Shown: positions 11,463-52,480 of the stretch, piece by piece
Position numbering within the stretch: the stretch's first letter is position 1
Layout: every line of letters begins with the position of its first letter
Origin: Ardenticatenaceae bacterium
GTDB taxonomy: Bacteria > Chloroflexota > Anaerolineae > Promineifilales > Promineifilaceae
NCBI GenBank assembly: GCA_030065875.1
Contig: JASJCR010000019.1
Coordinates: forward strand, 1-64,000
Direction: 5' to 3'
Length of the DNA: 64,000 nucleotides
Notes under the pieces: model-generated
Databases searched by the model: none
Told to the model about the DNA's origin: nothing
Seen by the model: the letters and a program-made list of their open reading frames with translations, nothing else
Made by a program: the position numbers and the translations under genes

Positions 11463-11570
11463 CTGAGCCGCGGGATATTACAACAAAACCTATTAGATCA
11501 GAGAGTAGAGACCAGGGACCAGAGAGCGATTCTCAACCTTCTCTCCTGTCTCTGGTCTCCAGTCTTTAAC

Positions 11571-14500
11571 ATGTGTTTAGATCAGCAAAAATTTGTCCAT
11601 CTTCACTGTCACAGCGAATATTCACTTCTTGACGGGTTGAGCCGTATTGATGACCTGGTCGAGCGAGCGGCCGAACTGGGACAGCCGGCCATCGCCCTCA
11701 CCGATCACGGGACGATGTACGGCACCATGCCGTTTTATCGCGCCGCCAAAAAAGCCGGGGTTAAGCCGATTATCGGGGTCGAAACGTACATGGCCGCGCG
11801 CACCATGCACGACAAGGAGCCGCGGCTCGACAAAGACCGCTTTCATTTGCTCCTGCTGGCCCAAAACCAAACCGGCTACCTGAATTTACTGGAAATCGCT
11901 TCCGCTTCCCAACTGGAGGGGTATTACTACAAACCGCGTATCGACCGCGCCTTTTTAGCCCAATACAATGAAGGGCTAATCGCCACTTCCGGCTGTCTGG
12001 CGGCCGAAGTGCCACAGGCGCTCATGCACAACAAACTCGATCAAGCCAAACAGCTGATGGGAGAGTACCTCGATATTTTTGGCAAGGAGCGCTTCTTTAT
12101 CGAGCTGCAGGAACACTCGATTCCCGAATTAACAGACGTCAACAAGAAGCTGATTGAGATGTCGCGTCATTTTGGGCTGGAAAATAATTTTGTCGTTACC
12201 AACGACGTCCACTACACGCTGGCCGAAGATGCTGACCCCCATCAGGTATTGCTCTGTATCCAAACCGGATCGACGATACAAAATCCGAAGATGACTTTTT
12301 CGGATCAGGAGTATTATCTCAAGTCGTATGAAGAGATGGCCACCCTGTTTAAAGAATACCCGGATGATATCGTCAAAAATTCGCTGATGAACAGCGTGCT
12401 CATTGCGGAGAAATGCGATGTCAATCTCGACTCTGAAGGGTATCACTTGCCAATTTTTGAGGTTCCCGAAGGAGAAACCGCCAAAAGCTATCTGCGAAAT
12501 CTGTGTGAGAAAGGGTTGGTTTGGCGATACGGGGCTGGGCGAGCGGCCGGCGATGAGGGGCTGCGCAACCGTCTCAATCACGAATTGGGGATTATCGGCC
12601 GGATGGGGTTTGAAACGTATTTCCTGATTGTTTGGGATTTGTGTGAATGGGCGGTACGTTCGGATGGGTGGTGGGCAGCCAATCAAGATCCTTACCCGTA
12701 CAGCAGCTATGAAGAATGGAAACGCAACGATATCTGGTGGAACGTCCGCGGCTCCGGAGCCGGTTCGGTCGTGGCGTATTCGCTGGGCATCACCAGCATT
12801 GATCCCCTGCGTAACGGCTTGATTTTTGAACGGTTCTTAAACCCCGGCCGCGTTTCGATGCCGGATATCGATCTCGATTATCCGGATGACGTACGCCACT
12901 GGATGGTCGCTTACGCCAAGCGACGCTACGGCCATGAAAAAGTAGCCCAAATCATCACCTTTGGGACGATGGGCGCGCGGGCGGCGATTCGCGACGTCGG
13001 CCGGGCGCTCGATGTGTCTCTGCCGGAAGTAGACGGCCTGGCCCGCCTGATCCCAGCCATTCCCGGCAAGCCGGTCAAAATTCAAAACGTCCTTGATCCC
13101 GAACACGAATTTTACTCAAAAGAGCTCGAAGAGCGATACAAACGGGAACAGGTCGTGCGGCAGATTGTCGACAACGCCCAATCGGTGGAGGGGTTATCAC
13201 GTCACGCTTCCAGCCATGCGGCCGGGGTCATTATTTCCGATGAACCGCTGGTTAAGTATGTGCCCCTCAACCGGCCAACCAGCGGCGAAGAAGGACTGGG
13301 CGGTGTTGACCGGGTCACCCAATGGCCGATGGAAATTGTCGAATCAATCGGCTTGCTCAAGGTCGATTTTCTCGGTTTGAGTACCCTAACCGTCATGCGC
13401 CGGGCGGCCCGTATCATCGAAGAGCGGTATGGCACCCAGTACACGATGGACAACATTCCCTATGATGTCGGGCACGTCGGCCCCGATCCCACCAAAAAGC
13501 CGGAAAAGCTGTTTGACATGCTGGCCAGGGGGCAGGTGGCCGGGGTGTTCCAGGTTGAAGGGGCCGGGATGCGCAAGCTGATGATGGAGATGCGGCCGCA
13601 GCTGTTTGATCACATTATCGCCGCGATTTCCCTTTATCGGCCGGGGCCAATGGAAAATATTCCCGAATATATTCGGCGGATGCACGCATCGATATTTGAT
13701 GATCAGGACATTGTTGAGTATCACCACGACGATCTTGAGCCGATTTTGAACGACACCTACGGTATTTTGGTTTATCAAGAGCAAATTATTCGCATTGCTT
13801 CTGATCTGGCCGGCTATGAACCCGGCGAGGCGGACATGATCCGCAAAGCGGTCTCCAAAAAGAAAAAGAAGCTGATGGAGGAACACCGCATCAAATTCAC
13901 CGATGGGGCGATGGCCCGTGGGTACACTCGTGAGGTGTGTGAAGCGATCTGGGGTGATATTGAGTTTTTTGCTCGCTACGGGTTTAACAAGGCCCACGCG
14001 GCCGATTACGCCAAAGTGACCTGTCAAACCGCTTTTCTCAAAGCCCATTATCCGGTTGAGTATTTAACCGCCATGCTTTCGGTGGAGCGGGACAAAACGG
14101 AAAAGGTGCAGCGCTACTTTGCCGAAGCCAAAAATTTGGGGATTGTGGTTGGTGCCCCCGACATCAACCGGTCTCATCTCGACTTCTCAATTGAAGACGA
14201 TGGTGAGAAGCCGGTCATCCGTTTTGGATTGGGGGCGGTTAAAAATGCCGGGGAGGCAGCCCTCAACCTGATTTTGGCAGAGCGACAGGAAAACGGTCCC
14301 TTTGCCAGCCTGCAGGATCTGGCTGAGCGCGTCGACTTACGCAAAGTGGGGAAGCGGGCAATGGAATACGTCATTAAAGCGGGGGCGATGCGCGAATTTG
14401 GCTCGGTGCCGCAAATGGTCGACGCGATGGAGCGGCTGGTGCAGTTTAGCGGCTCTCACCATCAGGCCGCCTCGGCCGGGCAAATGATGCTTTTTGGTGG

Positions 14501-15650
14501 GGCAATGGCGCCGGTGGCCCTGAGTATCGATCTGCTGCGGCCGGAAGCGGAGTTTGCCAACATCGACTACAAAGAGGTCCTGGCCTGGGAAAAAGAGGCG
14601 CTGGGTGTTTATGTTTCTGAGCATCCCCTTGAGCGACCGCTGGCCTCCCTCAAAAACCTGGTAACCATTTCACTGGAAGATTTAGACGCCAATCACAACG
14701 GCCGGCAAATTAAAATTGCCGGGATGTTGAGCCAGCTGCGGCCGTTAACCACCAAGAAAGGGGATCCGATGGCTTTTGGGGCCCTTGAAGATTTGACCGC
14801 TAAGGTGGATCTGGTCTTTTTCCCCCGGACGTGGGCCGCTCACCGGGCGCAGGCTCATGTCGATCAGGTGATGCTGGTGTACGGCAAGGTTCAGGCGGAT
14901 GACAAAGGGGTTTCGGTGATTGTAGACAGAATTGACATCAACCCCCAAATTGCCCGGGCGGCCAACGAACCGTTGGTGAGTCAAACTTCTTTAAATATCG
15001 TGGCAGATGAGAAGCTACAGACTACAGACCACAGACCACAGGCTACAGACCAGACACCAGAGACCAGAGACCAAAGACGGGAGAAAAATGGCGTGGCTGC
15101 GGCGGCATCTTCTACCCAATCTCAAACACCCAACCCCCATCACCCAACACCTAATACCCAACACCCATCACCCATCACCCATCACCCAACACCCAACACC
15201 CAGCACCCAGCACCCGATGCCGATGGCCCACCTCCACCACCAAACTTTGATGATGAGTGGCTGAATGCCCATGCAGATAAGAGACCAGAGACTGGAGACC
15301 AGAGACAGGAGACAACAGACCACAGACTTCAGACTTCAGCTAGGTCGTCTGATACCCAACACCCAACACCCAACACCCATCACCCACCACCCAGCACCCA
15401 ACACCCACCACCCAGCACCCAACACCCGCCCAAGCAAATCGTGGTGGAGATATCAGAAGAATCACATTGGCAGGCCGCTATACGCCAGGCGCTGGAAATC
15501 GCCAGCCGGTATCAGGGGGTTGATTCGATCACGATGGAGCTGCCGGAGCAAAAGGTGCAGATCGATTTCCCTAACTGTACAACGCGCTATACCAAGGAAC
15601 TCAAAAAGAAGCTTGAAGGATTGGTGGGGGTTCGCGGGGTGCGGGTTTAA
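11571..15650 (+). CDS. dnaE: DNA polymerase III alpha subunit DnaE with repeat-derived linker
   Basis: 1359 residues from ATG 11571; the frame is open further upstream but only through repeat sequence. N-terminal PHP domain (FVHLHCHSEYSLLDG near residue 7, ALTDHGTMYG near 43), then the C-family polymerase core (NVRGSGAGSVVAYSLG near 394, PDIDLDYPDD near 429 with catalytic Asp residues, SSHAAGVIIS near 545, FARYGFNKAHAADYA near 803), a helix-hairpin-helix, and an OB fold (IKIAGMLSQLRPL near 1046). Residues about 1147-1288 are low complexity: QTTDHRPQ-type words and HPTPNTQHP-type words, translated from dispersed repeats. A conserved C-terminal segment resumes after them. It is the replicative polymerase; no Shine-Dalgarno precedes the ATG. 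Confidence 0.96.
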   Translation: MCLDQQKFVHLHCHSEYSLLDGLSRIDDLVERAAELGQPAIALTDHGTMYGTMPFYRAAKKAGVKPIIGVETYMAARTMHDKEPRLDKDRFHLLLLAQNQTGYLNLLEIASASQLEGYYYKPRIDRAFLAQYNEGLIATSGCLAAEVPQALMHNKLDQAKQLMGEYLDIFGKERFFIELQEHSIPELTDVNKKLIEMSRHFGLENNFVVTNDVHYTLAEDADPHQVLLCIQTGSTIQNPKMTFSDQEYYLKSYEEMATLFKEYPDDIVKNSLMNSVLIAEKCDVNLDSEGYHLPIFEVPEGETAKSYLRNLCEKGLVWRYGAGRAAGDEGLRNRLNHELGIIGRMGFETYFLIVWDLCEWAVRSDGWWAANQDPYPYSSYEEWKRNDIWWNVRGSGAGSVVAYSLGITSIDPLRNGLIFERFLNPGRVSMPDIDLDYPDDVRHWMVAYAKRRYGHEKVAQIITFGTMGARAAIRDVGRALDVSLPEVDGLARLIPAIPGKPVKIQNVLDPEHEFYSKELEERYKREQVVRQIVDNAQSVEGLSRHASSHAAGVIISDEPLVKYVPLNRPTSGEEGLGGVDRVTQWPMEIVESIGLLKVDFLGLSTLTVMRRAARIIEERYGTQYTMDNIPYDVGHVGPDPTKKPEKLFDMLARGQVAGVFQVEGAGMRKLMMEMRPQLFDHIIAAISLYRPGPMENIPEYIRRMHASIFDDQDIVEYHHDDLEPILNDTYGILVYQEQIIRIASDLAGYEPGEADMIRKAVSKKKKKLMEEHRIKFTDGAMARGYTREVCEAIWGDIEFFARYGFNKAHAADYAKVTCQTAFLKAHYPVEYLTAMLSVERDKTEKVQRYFAEAKNLGIVVGAPDINRSHLDFSIEDDGEKPVIRFGLGAVKNAGEAALNLILAERQENGPFASLQDLAERVDLRKVGKRAMEYVIKAGAMREFGSVPQMVDAMERLVQFSGSHHQAASAGQMMLFGGAMAPVALSIDLLRPEAEFANIDYKEVLAWEKEALGVYVSEHPLERPLASLKNLVTISLEDLDANHNGRQIKIAGMLSQLRPLTTKKGDPMAFGALEDLTAKVDLVFFPRTWAAHRAQAHVDQVMLVYGKVQADDKGVSVIVDRIDINPQIARAANEPLVSQTSLNIVADEKLQTTDHRPQATDQTPETRDQRREKNGVAAAASSTQSQTPNPHHPTPNTQHPSPITHHPTPNTQHPAPDADGPPPPPNFDDEWLNAHADKRPETGDQRQETTDHRLQTSARSSDTQHPTPNTHHPPPSTQHPPPSTQHPPKQIVVEISEESHWQAAIRQALEIASRYQGVDSITMELPEQKVQIDFPNCTTRYTKELKKKLEGLVGVRGVRV
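15010..15435. repeat. Two dispersed repeat families inside dnaE
   Basis: Within the dnaE frame, CAGAC/GACCAGAGAC words (about 15010-15085 and 15278-15345) and ACCCAACACCCA/CACCCATCACCC words (about 15115-15215 and 15352-15430) alternate, separated by about 60 bases of ordinary coding sequence (DGPPPPPNFDDEW). The frame stays open throughout. The same two families occur side by side inside recD2. Confidence 0.9.
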
Positions 15651-15774
15651 TTTTTAAAGGCCTCACCCAAAAATGCCGCAGAGGAAGGCGCAAATGAAGA
15701 AGAGGGAAGGAGACAGCAAACTTCAGACTACAGCGGCTCGCTCTGTTGTCTGAAGTCTGTTATCTGAGGTCTTT

Positions 15775-16926
15775 CTAAATTCTTTGGGCAGCGCCCAGTG
15801 GGGTTTGCGGTGTTTCGGCCGGGCGACGACCCTGTTCGATCGGCATGGAAACGGTTTTTAGCTGAGGCAGCACATAGCGGCCGAACAGTTCGCACTCGTC
15901 TTTATGGGGGTAGCCGGAGAAGATAAAGGCGCGCAACCCCATGTCGATATACCGCTGGATCTTGTCGCGGATTTGATCGGGGTTGCCCACCAGAGCCATC
16001 CCGCAGCCGGAGCGGGCCCGGCCGATGCCGGTCCACAAATGGTCTTCGATATACCCTTCGCTGTCCGATCTTTCCCGAGCCTGCGACTGCAGCGCTACCC
16101 CAAGCGATTTTGCGTCAAGGGCCCGGTTGCGAATTTCGTCGCCAACATCCGCATCTAATTTTGAGACCAGCTTGTTGGCGGCCGCGCGGGCTTCATCTTC
16201 TGTTTCGCGTACGACCACGTGGATACGCAGTCCGTAGTCGATTTTTCGGCCGTATTTCCTGGCCCGGGCGGTTAAATCTTCCATATGGCCGCGTAAATTC
16301 TCTTCGGTGTCGGGCCACATCAGGTACACATCACAATGCTCAGCGCACAAATCTTTCCCGTCCGGGGAGTACCCCCCAAAATAAAGGAGCGGCCCCCCGT
16401 TTTGCTGGTATGGGCGGACAGGCAGCGTGTTGTTTATTTTGAAATTGTAAAATTGCCCTTCAAAGTCGATACACTCTTGCGTCCAGCCCTGCTTGAGAAT
16501 CTCGATCACCTCTCGCGAACGCTGGTATCGATCTTGAGAGGACATGTTGTCTCCCGGCAGGTTAGATGAAATGATGTTGACCGTTAAGCGACCCTCGAGA
16601 ATGTGATCCAGGGTAGCAATCGCCCGGCCAAGCATCGGAGGGTGAACTTCCCCACAGCGAATGGCGGTCAGCAAATTGATGTTTTGGGTCATGGGAGCCA
16701 CGGCCGAGGCAAACGTCAGCGTATCTTGCCCCACCTGGTAAGAGGACGGGCAGAGAATATTGCGAAAACCCAGCCGATCAGCGGTCAGCAAAACCTCTGA
16801 CGTATTTTTAAATGTCGATTTGTATCGATTATTGGGTACACCAAGATATTCGAAGTCGCCGTTGCACAGGGGAGCAAACCAGGAAACTTCAACACCGTCT
16901 AAGTGGGAGGAGCGAATTTCGATCAT
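15775..16926 (-). CDS. LLM-class flavin-dependent monooxygenase, SsuD-like
   Basis: 383 residues, the length of FMNH2-dependent alkanesulfonate monooxygenases. It has the bacterial luciferase-like barrel: [11 protein letters not shown] near residue 14, [11 protein letters not shown] near 45, [15 protein letters not shown] near 83, [15 protein letters not shown] near 112, then [10 protein letters not shown] near 181 and [17 protein letters not shown] near 315. It would oxidise a sulfonate or related carbon compound using reduced flavin from a partner. That partner is probably the flavin reductase encoded upstream on the same strand, with an aldo/keto reductase between. ATG at 16926 follows AAGGAAT. 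The substrate is not determined by sequence. Confidence 0.87.
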
Positions 16927-16936
16927 GAGATTCCTT

Positions 16937-17008
16937 TGAGACTACAGACCATAGACCTCAGACAACAGAAGCGATCTCTGTTGTCTGAGGTCTGTGGTCT
17001 GTTGTCTT
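16937..17008. repeat. CAGAC-word hairpin between AKR and LLM genes
   Basis: GACTACAGACCATAGACCTCAGACAAC and its near complement GTTGTCTGAGGTCTGTGGTCTGTTGTC flank a short GAAGCGATCTC loop, giving a long stem in the gap between the two genes. A further copy lies at 15708-15775 just downstream of the LLM gene. Confidence 0.8.
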
Positions 17009-18531: not shown

Positions 18532-18640
18532 GGAAAGACCTCCAAAATAGGGTGGCCTTACTATAAGCCAACTGCACTCTTAAAAACGTTCACAATTGTT
18601 GAGTGGACTTTTAAAAACAAAGTGTGGCACAATACGCCGG

Positions 18641-19522
18641 ATGTCTAAGCCACAAATTGAACGATATTTTGGGCCCGACTGTTTAATACCTGCCTTAAAG
18701 GCGGTTGGTCAATCTCGTCAGGTAGTGGCCCGCAATGGGTTGGGGCCTCATTTTGAATCGTACTACGAGATTCACCTGATAATGGACGGAACGGTCAACT
18801 GGTGGGTAGAAGACGAAAGTTATATTTTGCCACCGGGGACGGTTTATATCACTAAACCGGGTGAACTGCACGGCGGGTATAAAAATTTGGTTCAGCCCTG
18901 CTCTTTGACCTGGCTGCAGGTTGATGGGGAAGCGCTGGCAGACGCCTCCATGGCGGCCGAGCTGCAGGCCCTCGATTTGCGTCGTTGGGTCGGGGCGCAG
19001 GAGTTAATCGGCTATATTCAGGCGATTTTAGACGAATGTCGCCGGCCGCGGCCGGACAGTTCACGCCTGGTTTCAGCTTATCTGCATCTGTTTTTATCTC
19101 ATTTGCTGCGGCAAACGGCCCGCACCGAAGAAACCCACGCCTACCCACCGCGGTTTGAGCAGCTGCTGCACTACATCGACAGCTGCCTAACTGATGCTTC
19201 ATCGGTGACGGTGAAAGATTTGTGTGAATTTGCCAATCTGAGCCGCAGCCGGATTTTCCAGCTGTTTAATCAATACGTCGGTCAAAGCCCCATATCTTAT
19301 ATTATGTCAAGCAGAATTGACCTTGCGAAGATTAAACTGCAGCAAAGTGAGTTGTCAATTACCGAGGTGGCTTTGGAAATGGGATTTTCTTCCAGTCAAC
19401 ATTTTGCCACGGTTTTTAAACGGATTACGGGGTCAACTCCGACGGAGTACAGACTACAGACCACAGACATCAGACATCAGACCACAGACATCAGACATCA
19501 GACGACAGAAGGTAGACATTAA
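18641..19522 (+). CDS. AraC-family transcriptional regulator with repeat-derived tail
   Basis: 293 residues from ATG 18641. The N-terminal cupin sensor domain has a histidine-bearing SYYEIHLIMDG near residue 40 and PPGTVYITKPGELHGG near 65. Two helix-turn-helix units follow from about residue 187 (VTVKDLCEFANLSRSRIFQLF, then ITEVALEMGFSSSQHFATVFKR, each described by its ends), closing with the family's usual GSTPTEYR. The last 25 residues (RLQTTDIRHQTTDIRHQ...) are a translation of the CAGAC repeat. It is divergent from the flavin reductase operon and precedes a sugar kinase, so it may respond to a sugar or to the monooxygenase substrate. Confidence 0.88.
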   Translation: MSKPQIERYFGPDCLIPALKAVGQSRQVVARNGLGPHFESYYEIHLIMDGTVNWWVEDESYILPPGTVYITKPGELHGGYKNLVQPCSLTWLQVDGEALADASMAAELQALDLRRWVGAQELIGYIQAILDECRRPRPDSSRLVSAYLHLFLSHLLRQTARTEETHAYPPRFEQLLHYIDSCLTDASSVTVKDLCEFANLSRSRIFQLFNQYVGQSPISYIMSSRIDLAKIKLQQSELSITEVALEMGFSSSQHFATVFKRITGSTPTEYRLQTTDIRHQTTDIRHQTTEGRH

Positions 19523-48896: not shown

Positions 48897-51236
<2,340 letters not shown>

Positions 51237-51243
51237 GAAAAAG

Positions 51244-51304
51244 TCCAGAGACGAGAGACGAGAGACGAGAGACGAGAGACCACAGACCACAGACATCAGA
51301 CATT
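51244..51304. repeat. CAGAC-word repeat upstream of recD2
   Basis: GAGACGAGAGACGAGAGACGAG followed by ACCACAGACCACAGACATCAGAC. It is directly upstream of the recD2 start. About 50-100 bases further is the ACCCATTACCCAACACC family (51349-51400), which runs into the 3' end of the cyclase gene. Confidence 0.85.
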
Positions 51305-51388
51305 AGAAACATCACCATAATCGATACTTTACCTTAAAACTTTCCTACACCTTCCACCCATTACCCAACACCTATCACCTAACACCCA

Positions 51389-52480
51389 TTACCCATCTCC
51401 TTTCGTTCCTGTGAGAAAATACGTCTGCATCTGCCCGCGTCCTTTGATCCACATCGGTTCACGAGCGGCAAATTGATAATTGTCTTTCAGCAGGGCATAG
51501 GTTTCTTCAGTGACGTGGATTTGCCCTTCGAGCCCCTGCTCTTCCAAGCGCTTGGCGATGTTTACCGTGTCTCCCCAAAAGTCATAGCTAAATTTGTAGC
51601 GGCCAATGACCCCGGCAATGACCGGGCCGCTGTTGATGCCAATACGCATTGAAAACCGGGTACCATTCGGGCTGGTAAAATTGCCGATCGCCTGCTGGAT
51701 GGCCAGCGCCAGCTGAGCAATGGAACGGGCGTGATTGGGGGAATGAATGGGAGCGCCCCCAACGGCCATGTACCCATCACCGATCGTTTTGACTTTTTCT
51801 ACCCCTAACTCTTCAGCCAGCTGGTCAAATCGGGAAAAAATGTCGTTGAGCAGGGTGACCAGCTCGATGGGGGGCATACCGTGAGCCAGCTGGGTAAAGT
51901 TGACGATATCGGCGAACAGCACGGTGACATTTTCAAAGCTGTCGGCAATCGTTTCTTCTCCCATTTTGAGGCGTTCGGCAACCGCATAAGGCAAGATATT
52001 TTGCAGCAGCTGCTCGCTGCGCAGTCGCTCAATCTCCAGCTGTTTGAGGTAAATTTTTTCTTGATCGGTGCGCCGCTTTTTTTGCATCGCCGCGTCAACA
52101 CGGGCCCTTAAAATGGTGTTGGTGATCGGCTTGCTAATATAATCGGTGGCGCCCAAATTGATCGATTTGATGACGCTCTCCAAATCGGTGAGGGCGGAGA
52201 TGATCAACACCGGAAGATCTTTAAACCGGGGTTGCCCTTTAAGCTCTTCTAAAACGTCAAATCCGGACATTTCCGGCATCATCAGGTCCAGCAATATTAG
52301 GTCAAACGGCTGGCGATACAGTTTTTCTAATCCCTCTCGCCCTCGATTGGCCACGTCAACCTTGTAGCCAAATGATTTGAGCTGAGTGGCTAATACCAGA
52401 CTGTTGACCTCACTGTCATCGATAATCAATATCGACACATCATCGGTTTGACTCTTAGCATTATTTTCTCTGTTTGTCAC
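51389..52480 (-). CDS. Receiver domain fused to class III adenylate cyclase
   Basis: 363 residues from a GTG at 52480. Receiver at the N-terminus: ILIIDDSEVN near residue 17, phosphorylated Asp in LILLDLMMPEMSGFD near 62 and ISKPIT near 113. A coiled-coil linker of about 40 residues follows. The class III cyclase catalytic domain spans about 180-345: VLFADIVNFTQLA (first metal Asp), VEKVKTIGDGYMAVGG (second metal region and adenine-specifying Lys) and FWGDTVNIAKRLE (adenine Asp and transition-state residues). It would make cAMP under control of a partner kinase that is not in the window. The GTG is flanked by TGTCAC and GTGACA, an inverted pair. The last codons lie in the ACCCA repeat. Confidence 0.93.
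   Translation of the reverse strand: MTNRENNAKSQTDDVSILIIDDSEVNSLVLATQLKSFGYKVDVANRGREGLEKLYRQPFDLILLDLMMPEMSGFDVLEELKGQPRFKDLPVLIISALTDLESVIKSINLGATDYISKPITNTILRARVDAAMQKKRRTDQEKIYLKQLEIERLRSEQLLQNILPYAVAERLKMGEETIADSFENVTVLFADIVNFTQLAHGMPPIELVTLLNDIFSRFDQLAEELGVEKVKTIGDGYMAVGGAPIHSPNHARSIAQLALAIQQAIGNFTSPNGTRFSMRIGINSGPVIAGVIGRYKFSYDFWGDTVNIAKRLEEQGLEGQIHVTEETYALLKDNYQFAAREPMWIKGRGQMQTYFLTGTKGDG

Follow-up and report, generated by a model that had tools for sequence, protein, structure and literature searches.

How the gene for an essential replicative polymerase can carry non-coding repeats within its reading frame is the question raised by dnaE in the 64,000 nt stretch of Ardenticatenaceae DNA analysed here (the window). 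The gene (11571–15650, plus strand) encodes a 1359 aa DNA polymerase III alpha subunit that scores above the cut-off of NCBIfam PRK05673. The Pfam domains PHP, DNA_pol3_alpha, finger, HHH_6 and OB were all found, and the polymerase core is intact, as the initial annotation had stated. The protein has the PHP, polymerase core, HHH, OB and C-terminal domains that characterize a replicative DnaE, and the nearest solved structures are those of bacterial alpha subunits. A second, diverged DnaE with 33% identity is encoded elsewhere in the same genome (C145:5261–8050).

The repeats lie on the plus strand between the OB fold (14709–14936; Pfam PF01336, residues 1047–1122) and the C-terminal domain (15432–15647; residues 1288–1359), which is conserved in relatives. 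Four blocks of degenerate heptanucleotide units, each unit with five fixed bases and two free positions, fall within 15005–15433: A1 (15005–15087) consists of (C/G)AGAC+NN words, A2 (15122–15215, with the detector segment extending to 15224) of ACCCA+NN words, B1 (about 15280–15340) of (G/C)AGAC+NN words and B2 (about 15353–15432) of ACCCA+NN words, on which a higher-order period of 21 bp is superimposed (3.5 copies, 92%), the boundaries of B1 and B2 being read from the sequence. Between the two pairs of blocks is a native motif, DADGPPPPPNFDDEWLNAHADK (15216–15279), whose PPPPPNF(E/D)D is conserved in relatives and in which P201–P204 of the fragment are nearly invariant or invariant. The linker is largely array-coded, as had been claimed for about 140 residues, but the repeat translation is not continuous, because the four blocks surround DADGPPPPPNFDDEWLNAHADK. 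The lag-7 signal of the linker was 27/28, a value reached by none of 1000 codon shuffles. Across 15005–15433, a single one of the three forward frames is open and all three reverse frames are closed; the DnaE ORF reads through the repeats in that frame without a stop, in agreement with the first description.

The earlier reading of the site as a domain linker is consistent with structure prediction. In an AlphaFold2 model of the 339-residue end of the protein, with 30 relatives in the alignment, the linker had pLDDT values of 38–63 and no secondary structure, between an OB fold at 89–98 and a C-terminal domain at 91–97. A fold search with the OB and C-terminal fragment ranked one DnaE first, followed by OB-fold tRNA synthetases, and was uninformative on the C-terminal domain. 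An intein was considered and rejected, as the Pfam scan contained no intein family and the arrays are in a linker outside the catalytic domains.

The same words are spread throughout the genome, which is 7.4 Mb in 198 contigs. Named relatives retrieved with its DnaE are MAGs of the Chloroflexota (Anaerolineae, Ardenticatenia, Promineifilum), so that the genome is itself most likely metagenome-assembled and from this group. Three-unit matches numbered 502 for CAGAC (247 forward, 255 reverse) and 516 for ACCCA, bearing out the proposal that both are dispersed families. An array survey of ~1.37 Mb, sampled in stretches with a slight bias toward contigs with repeat matches, identified 208 heptad arrays (152 per Mb, about 1% of the sequence) versus 28 at lag 8 and none at lag 11. 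These divided into 141 intergenic, 48 edge and 19 mid-gene arrays; with only 19 situated well within ORFs across the whole sample, heptads in any given gene are rare. With their tandem 7-bp units and their dispersal over both strands, mainly between genes, the arrays belong to the heptanucleotide tandem repeats (SSR/STRR class). The ACCCA family presents a GGG run every seven bases on the complement, whereas the CAGAC family has no such run. Counts across 52 family genomes showed that the words are lineage-limited: CAGACNN had 502 matches in the window genome and at most 47 in others, and ACCCANN had 516 and at most 13. Conversely, ACCGATN was absent from the window genome and had 80–259 matches in G002–G006, and ACGAATN, also absent, had 188, 163, 88 and 47 in G033, G036, G039 and G034, respectively. 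AATTCAC and GCAGTKA were likewise confined to particular lineages.

DnaE and RecD2 were chosen for comparison since both carry arrays in the window; the remaining genomes played no part in that selection. Heptad arrays in the DnaE linker, called by a codon-shuffle test at p≤0.005, were present in 19 of 45 family genomes belonging to seven genera, including two weak passing calls (G008 and G040); the linkers of the other 26 contained no detectable array. Linker words differ by lineage: AGTNNGA-like in the same-genus G049, GCAGTGA or CGGTNAT in genus g2, ACCGAT-like in g12, ACGAAT in g17 and ACAATTC in G044. Each of six linker words that we counted also has matches at other loci of the genomes in which it is found in DnaE. 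Within g17, DnaE contains ACGAAT arrays in five genomes (G033–G036 and G039), which hold 5–188 matches genome-wide; G037, G038 and G040, which have no ACGAAT array in DnaE, hold 0–1. Mapping onto a polymerase-core tree required no fewer than 10 binary changes of array presence and no fewer than 13 of word, on a quick tree in which gain and loss are not separable. Judged from these sequences, occupation of the DnaE linker is recurrent across genera and is no single-genome curiosity.

The comparison with relatives also altered our view of how the repeats came to be in the window gene. DnaE linkers of relatives range from 65 to 222 aa and are hypervariable except for the PPPPPNF(E/D)D motif, indicating that a linker between the OB fold and the C-terminal domain is ancestral in the family. 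In both same-genus genomes with the region, the linker is longer than the 147 aa of the window genome (which lie between the end of the OB fold, at about residue 1122, and residue 1288), at 192 aa in G048 and 222 aa in G049, and lacks the CAGAC and ACCCA words. Repeats have therefore replaced linker sequence here with no net lengthening. Given the native motif between the blocks and the older linker, the array material is better described as lying in an existing linker than as one insert, and the simple repeat insertion of the initial annotation is not upheld. Arrays are present in some relatives and absent from others, and linker length varies; the same residues were not found encoded by non-repetitive DNA in relatives, whose low-complexity linkers differ in sequence. 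The observation of repeats in DnaE is real, with these corrections. No empty site in a very close relative was seen for the window genome, the nearest DnaE being 71% identical overall, and so the insertion step itself was not observed.

A second in-frame case is provided by the recD2 helicase gene (48897–51296, minus strand; above the cut-off of NCBIfam TIGR01448, with Pfam HHH_RecD2 and AAA_19). Here, an array of CAGAC then ACCCA words (50225–50406, minus strand; 21-bp period, 6.1 copies, 96%) occupies the linker between the HHH and AAA domains. This linker is 54 aa in the window genome versus 19–21 aa in the same-genus G048 and G050, a real net gain, and arrays were found at the RecD2 linker in 17–18 of 30 genomes. 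A further array, at 51245–51294, spans the start codon called for recD2; translation probably begins at the following ATG (residue 21), which would leave that array in the 5′ leader.

Coding arrays might be expected to change length by whole codons. G005 and G006 are about 88–90% identical at these loci. A single clean 21-bp block distinguishes their recD2 arrays, their dnaE arrays show a net difference of 21 bp (three units), and non-coding arrays next to the two genes vary by 7, 14 or 21 bp. Indel sizes were taken only from separately re-aligned pairs, as automatic sizing split gaps in pairwise BLAST. The 21-bp coding differences are consistent with a reading-frame filter on length; since coding arrays as a group showed no significant excess of 21-bp periodicity relative to intergenic ones (p=0.21), the filter rests on few cases. 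Orientation is subject to a simple codon logic: CAGACNN read forward contains no stop in any frame, whereas on the complement many choices of NN produce TGA or TAG. The coding strand carries CAGAC/GAGAC or ACCCA words in DnaE, RecD2, a kinase (L104), a polyketide synthase (L176), a LuxR protein (L095) and a TMEM260-like protein (L117), a count of about six domain-supported genes, whereas CAGAC matches over the whole genome divide 247 to 255 between the strands. The opposite orientation was seen in L084, which has a Polysacc_synt domain and an array near the N-terminus, and in L090, L123 and L148, ORFs in which domains were not tested or not found. The intragenic array of L168 contains neither word.

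Intergenic arrays frequently form hairpins, with inverted heptad runs as arms: 34 of the 141 in the window genome sample did so, whereas a set of 28 intragenic arrays from three genomes contained no hairpin. Such hairpins flank dnaE on both sides, at 11495–11568 just upstream of the start codon (plus strand; RNA fold –32.5 kcal/mol) and at 15705–15775 downstream (plus strand; –26.7 kcal/mol). Another, between two minus-strand genes (16939–17001), has CAGAC/GTCTG arms and a 7-base loop followed by TTT (–49.3 kcal/mol for 16938–17005). Intergenic hairpins are often long with variable loops, some being followed by a T run, and it is possible that they are terminators or REP-like elements. Downstream of recD2 (L206, L211), one intergenic hairpin of G004 exceeds its G006 counterpart by 21 bp in each arm, as though the two arms had changed together.

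We also observed a composite element in eight copies, with a core, TTGACATAAAGTGAGTGATGATTTATCCTG, of promoter-like TTGACA-N17-TATCCT layout flanked by (GGTGATR)n on one side and (CACCCAA)n on the other. The copies are L228 (G000:C13:66946–66977) and L229–L235, on contigs C62, C77, C102, C146, C150, C156 and C159; in L235, the array stops just before an ATG. Eight copies of a flanked core indicate that some arrays travel with a fixed sequence.

We consider it likely that these findings reflect a genome-wide heptad system from which selection leaves arrays as neutral filler in disordered linkers. The family carries degenerate heptanucleotide tandem repeats (five fixed and two free bases, or similar) throughout the genome, with words particular to each lineage at dozens to hundreds of sites, mostly intergenic and partly hairpins. 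Under this model, arrays would arise, grow and shrink in 7-bp steps, and the same word would seed new arrays elsewhere through a copying process, which we infer because words are shared between loci. An array falling in a gene would usually destroy it; survival would require a disordered linker, an orientation that is stop-free in the frame used and a frame-restoring length, so that net changes of 21 bp are expected. The DnaE OB-to-C-terminal and RecD2 linkers would be permissive sites, occupied, lost and re-occupied many times, and the repeat-coded residues most likely serve just as a flexible tether.

Local slippage, functional retention and assembly error are rival explanations that are not fully exclusive. 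Low-complexity linker codons might have grown arrays in place by replication slippage, without copying between loci. The linkers are rich in Pro, Asn and Gly and are repetitive even without heptads (NGNGNGR; a 21-bp GRQNGNG-coding repeat in G003), and heptanucleotide repeats have been proposed to favour polymerase slippage, according to work cited in PMC4679880. Independent slippage starting at random seeds does not, however, predict that linker words should be the genome-specific words found at tens to hundreds of loci, nor that the unrelated words CAGAC and ACCCA should lie side by side, and we regard a local origin as unlikely. As for an assembler having joined repeats inside dnaE, several contigs of this genome (C2, C4 and C150) do start or finish in ACCCA arrays, so that arrays interrupt the assembly and their lengths in it may be wrong. 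Such an artefact is hardly credible as the source of the arrays themselves, given that the frame is held through four arrays and a conserved native motif, and likewise in recD2, and that 18 other independent assemblies have arrays at the same linker, including that of G033, which has only three contigs.

It could also be argued that the dnaE and recD2 arrays, together with the hairpins on either side of dnaE, are functional, through regulation by a G-quadruplex or hairpin in DNA or mRNA or through tuning of tether length. That two DNA-metabolism genes are affected recurrently across genera would fit this idea, as would the GGGTGTT repeats with their apparent G-quadruplex-like layout, the eight copies of the promoter-like core with flanking arrays and the quadruplexes that similar G-rich heptads make in vitro (PMC4692102). 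Set against it are the 26 of 45 DnaE linkers with no detectable array, words that are wholly different between lineages, widely varying lengths and coding arrays that lack the hairpin found in intergenic arrays; a function of this kind is very unlikely. Quite unlikely too, in our estimation, is an active, hitherto unrecognized process of repeat writing or copying that switches between lineage-specific words and for which the DnaE and RecD2 linkers are preferred landing sites, not merely tolerant ones; such a preference could possibly arise from these proteins meeting the repeats during replication. The reading that we favour remains neutral filler left by selection in permissive linkers.

Dispersed heptanucleotides are known from other bacteria, namely GGGANTN in Xanthomonas, GGGGA(C/T)T in Nostoc and heptanucleotides in Calothrix (PMC4692102). 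The arrays described here resemble these in their seven-base unit, degenerate positions, presence on both strands and mostly intergenic location with an intragenic minority, but differ in that each genome has several unrelated words, the vocabulary changes from genus to genus within one family and arrays have returned to the same linkers in two genes. The TAACTGA repeats of Beggiatoaceae (PMC4679880) and the (GATAGRA)n satellites of Chloroflexus aurantiacus, another member of the Chloroflexota (PMC6749651), are similarly lineage-specific dispersed heptamers for which no mechanism of spread is known; they have been described as direct repeats between genes or as satellites, and the passages of these two papers covered here do not mention recurrent occupation of replication-protein linkers. 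Rickettsia palindromic elements (RPEs) are dispersed and occur in frame within unrelated genes, at positions compatible with the fold (reviewed in PMC10969869). DnaE and RecD2 share this in-frame presence inside genes, whereas an RPE is a discrete element, about 150 bp long, from a family that encodes a conserved peptide, and the intragenic heptad arrays have no palindrome, fixed length or conserved peptide. With no hairpin in any of the 28 intragenic arrays, and with lengths and words that vary, the arrays are not RPEs. As regards a MITE or IS-derived element, which would have terminal inverted repeats and a target-site duplication, the intragenic arrays showed no hairpin. The DnaE and RecD2 case combines known heptamer repeats with RPE-like in-frame occupation, and adds repeated re-occupation with changing words. 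Our literature search returned no paper on heptads in this Chloroflexota family and no report of the same linkers being re-occupied with changing heptad words.

In two enzymes of genome maintenance, including an essential replicative polymerase, non-coding repeats have repeatedly been turned into protein sequence. The same linker in many genomes, with different words, offers a natural series in which one can measure how repeats give rise to disordered protein sequence, how the three-unit frame filter operates and how heptad words spread. In practice, heptad stretches should be masked before DnaE or RecD2 proteins are compared.

Several other arrays of the window genome deserve mention. Five compound arrays were found, all with CAGAC-type followed by ACCCA words in one polarity (window 15281–15421, 50245–50391 and 51248–51395; L117:656–807; L121:7902–8042). 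We dropped this arrangement as a coding signature, as the L121 case lies upstream of an apparent GMC-type oxidoreductase start. In the polyketide-synthase-like protein of L176 (9286–14484), the acyltransferase domain is followed by three in-frame CAGAC/GAGAC arrays. Finally, an array at 19439–19521 of the window lies across the 3′ end of a gene for an AraC-type regulator (18596–19522), where it encodes the last residues past the HTH domain and pairs with an inverted arm beyond the stop codon.
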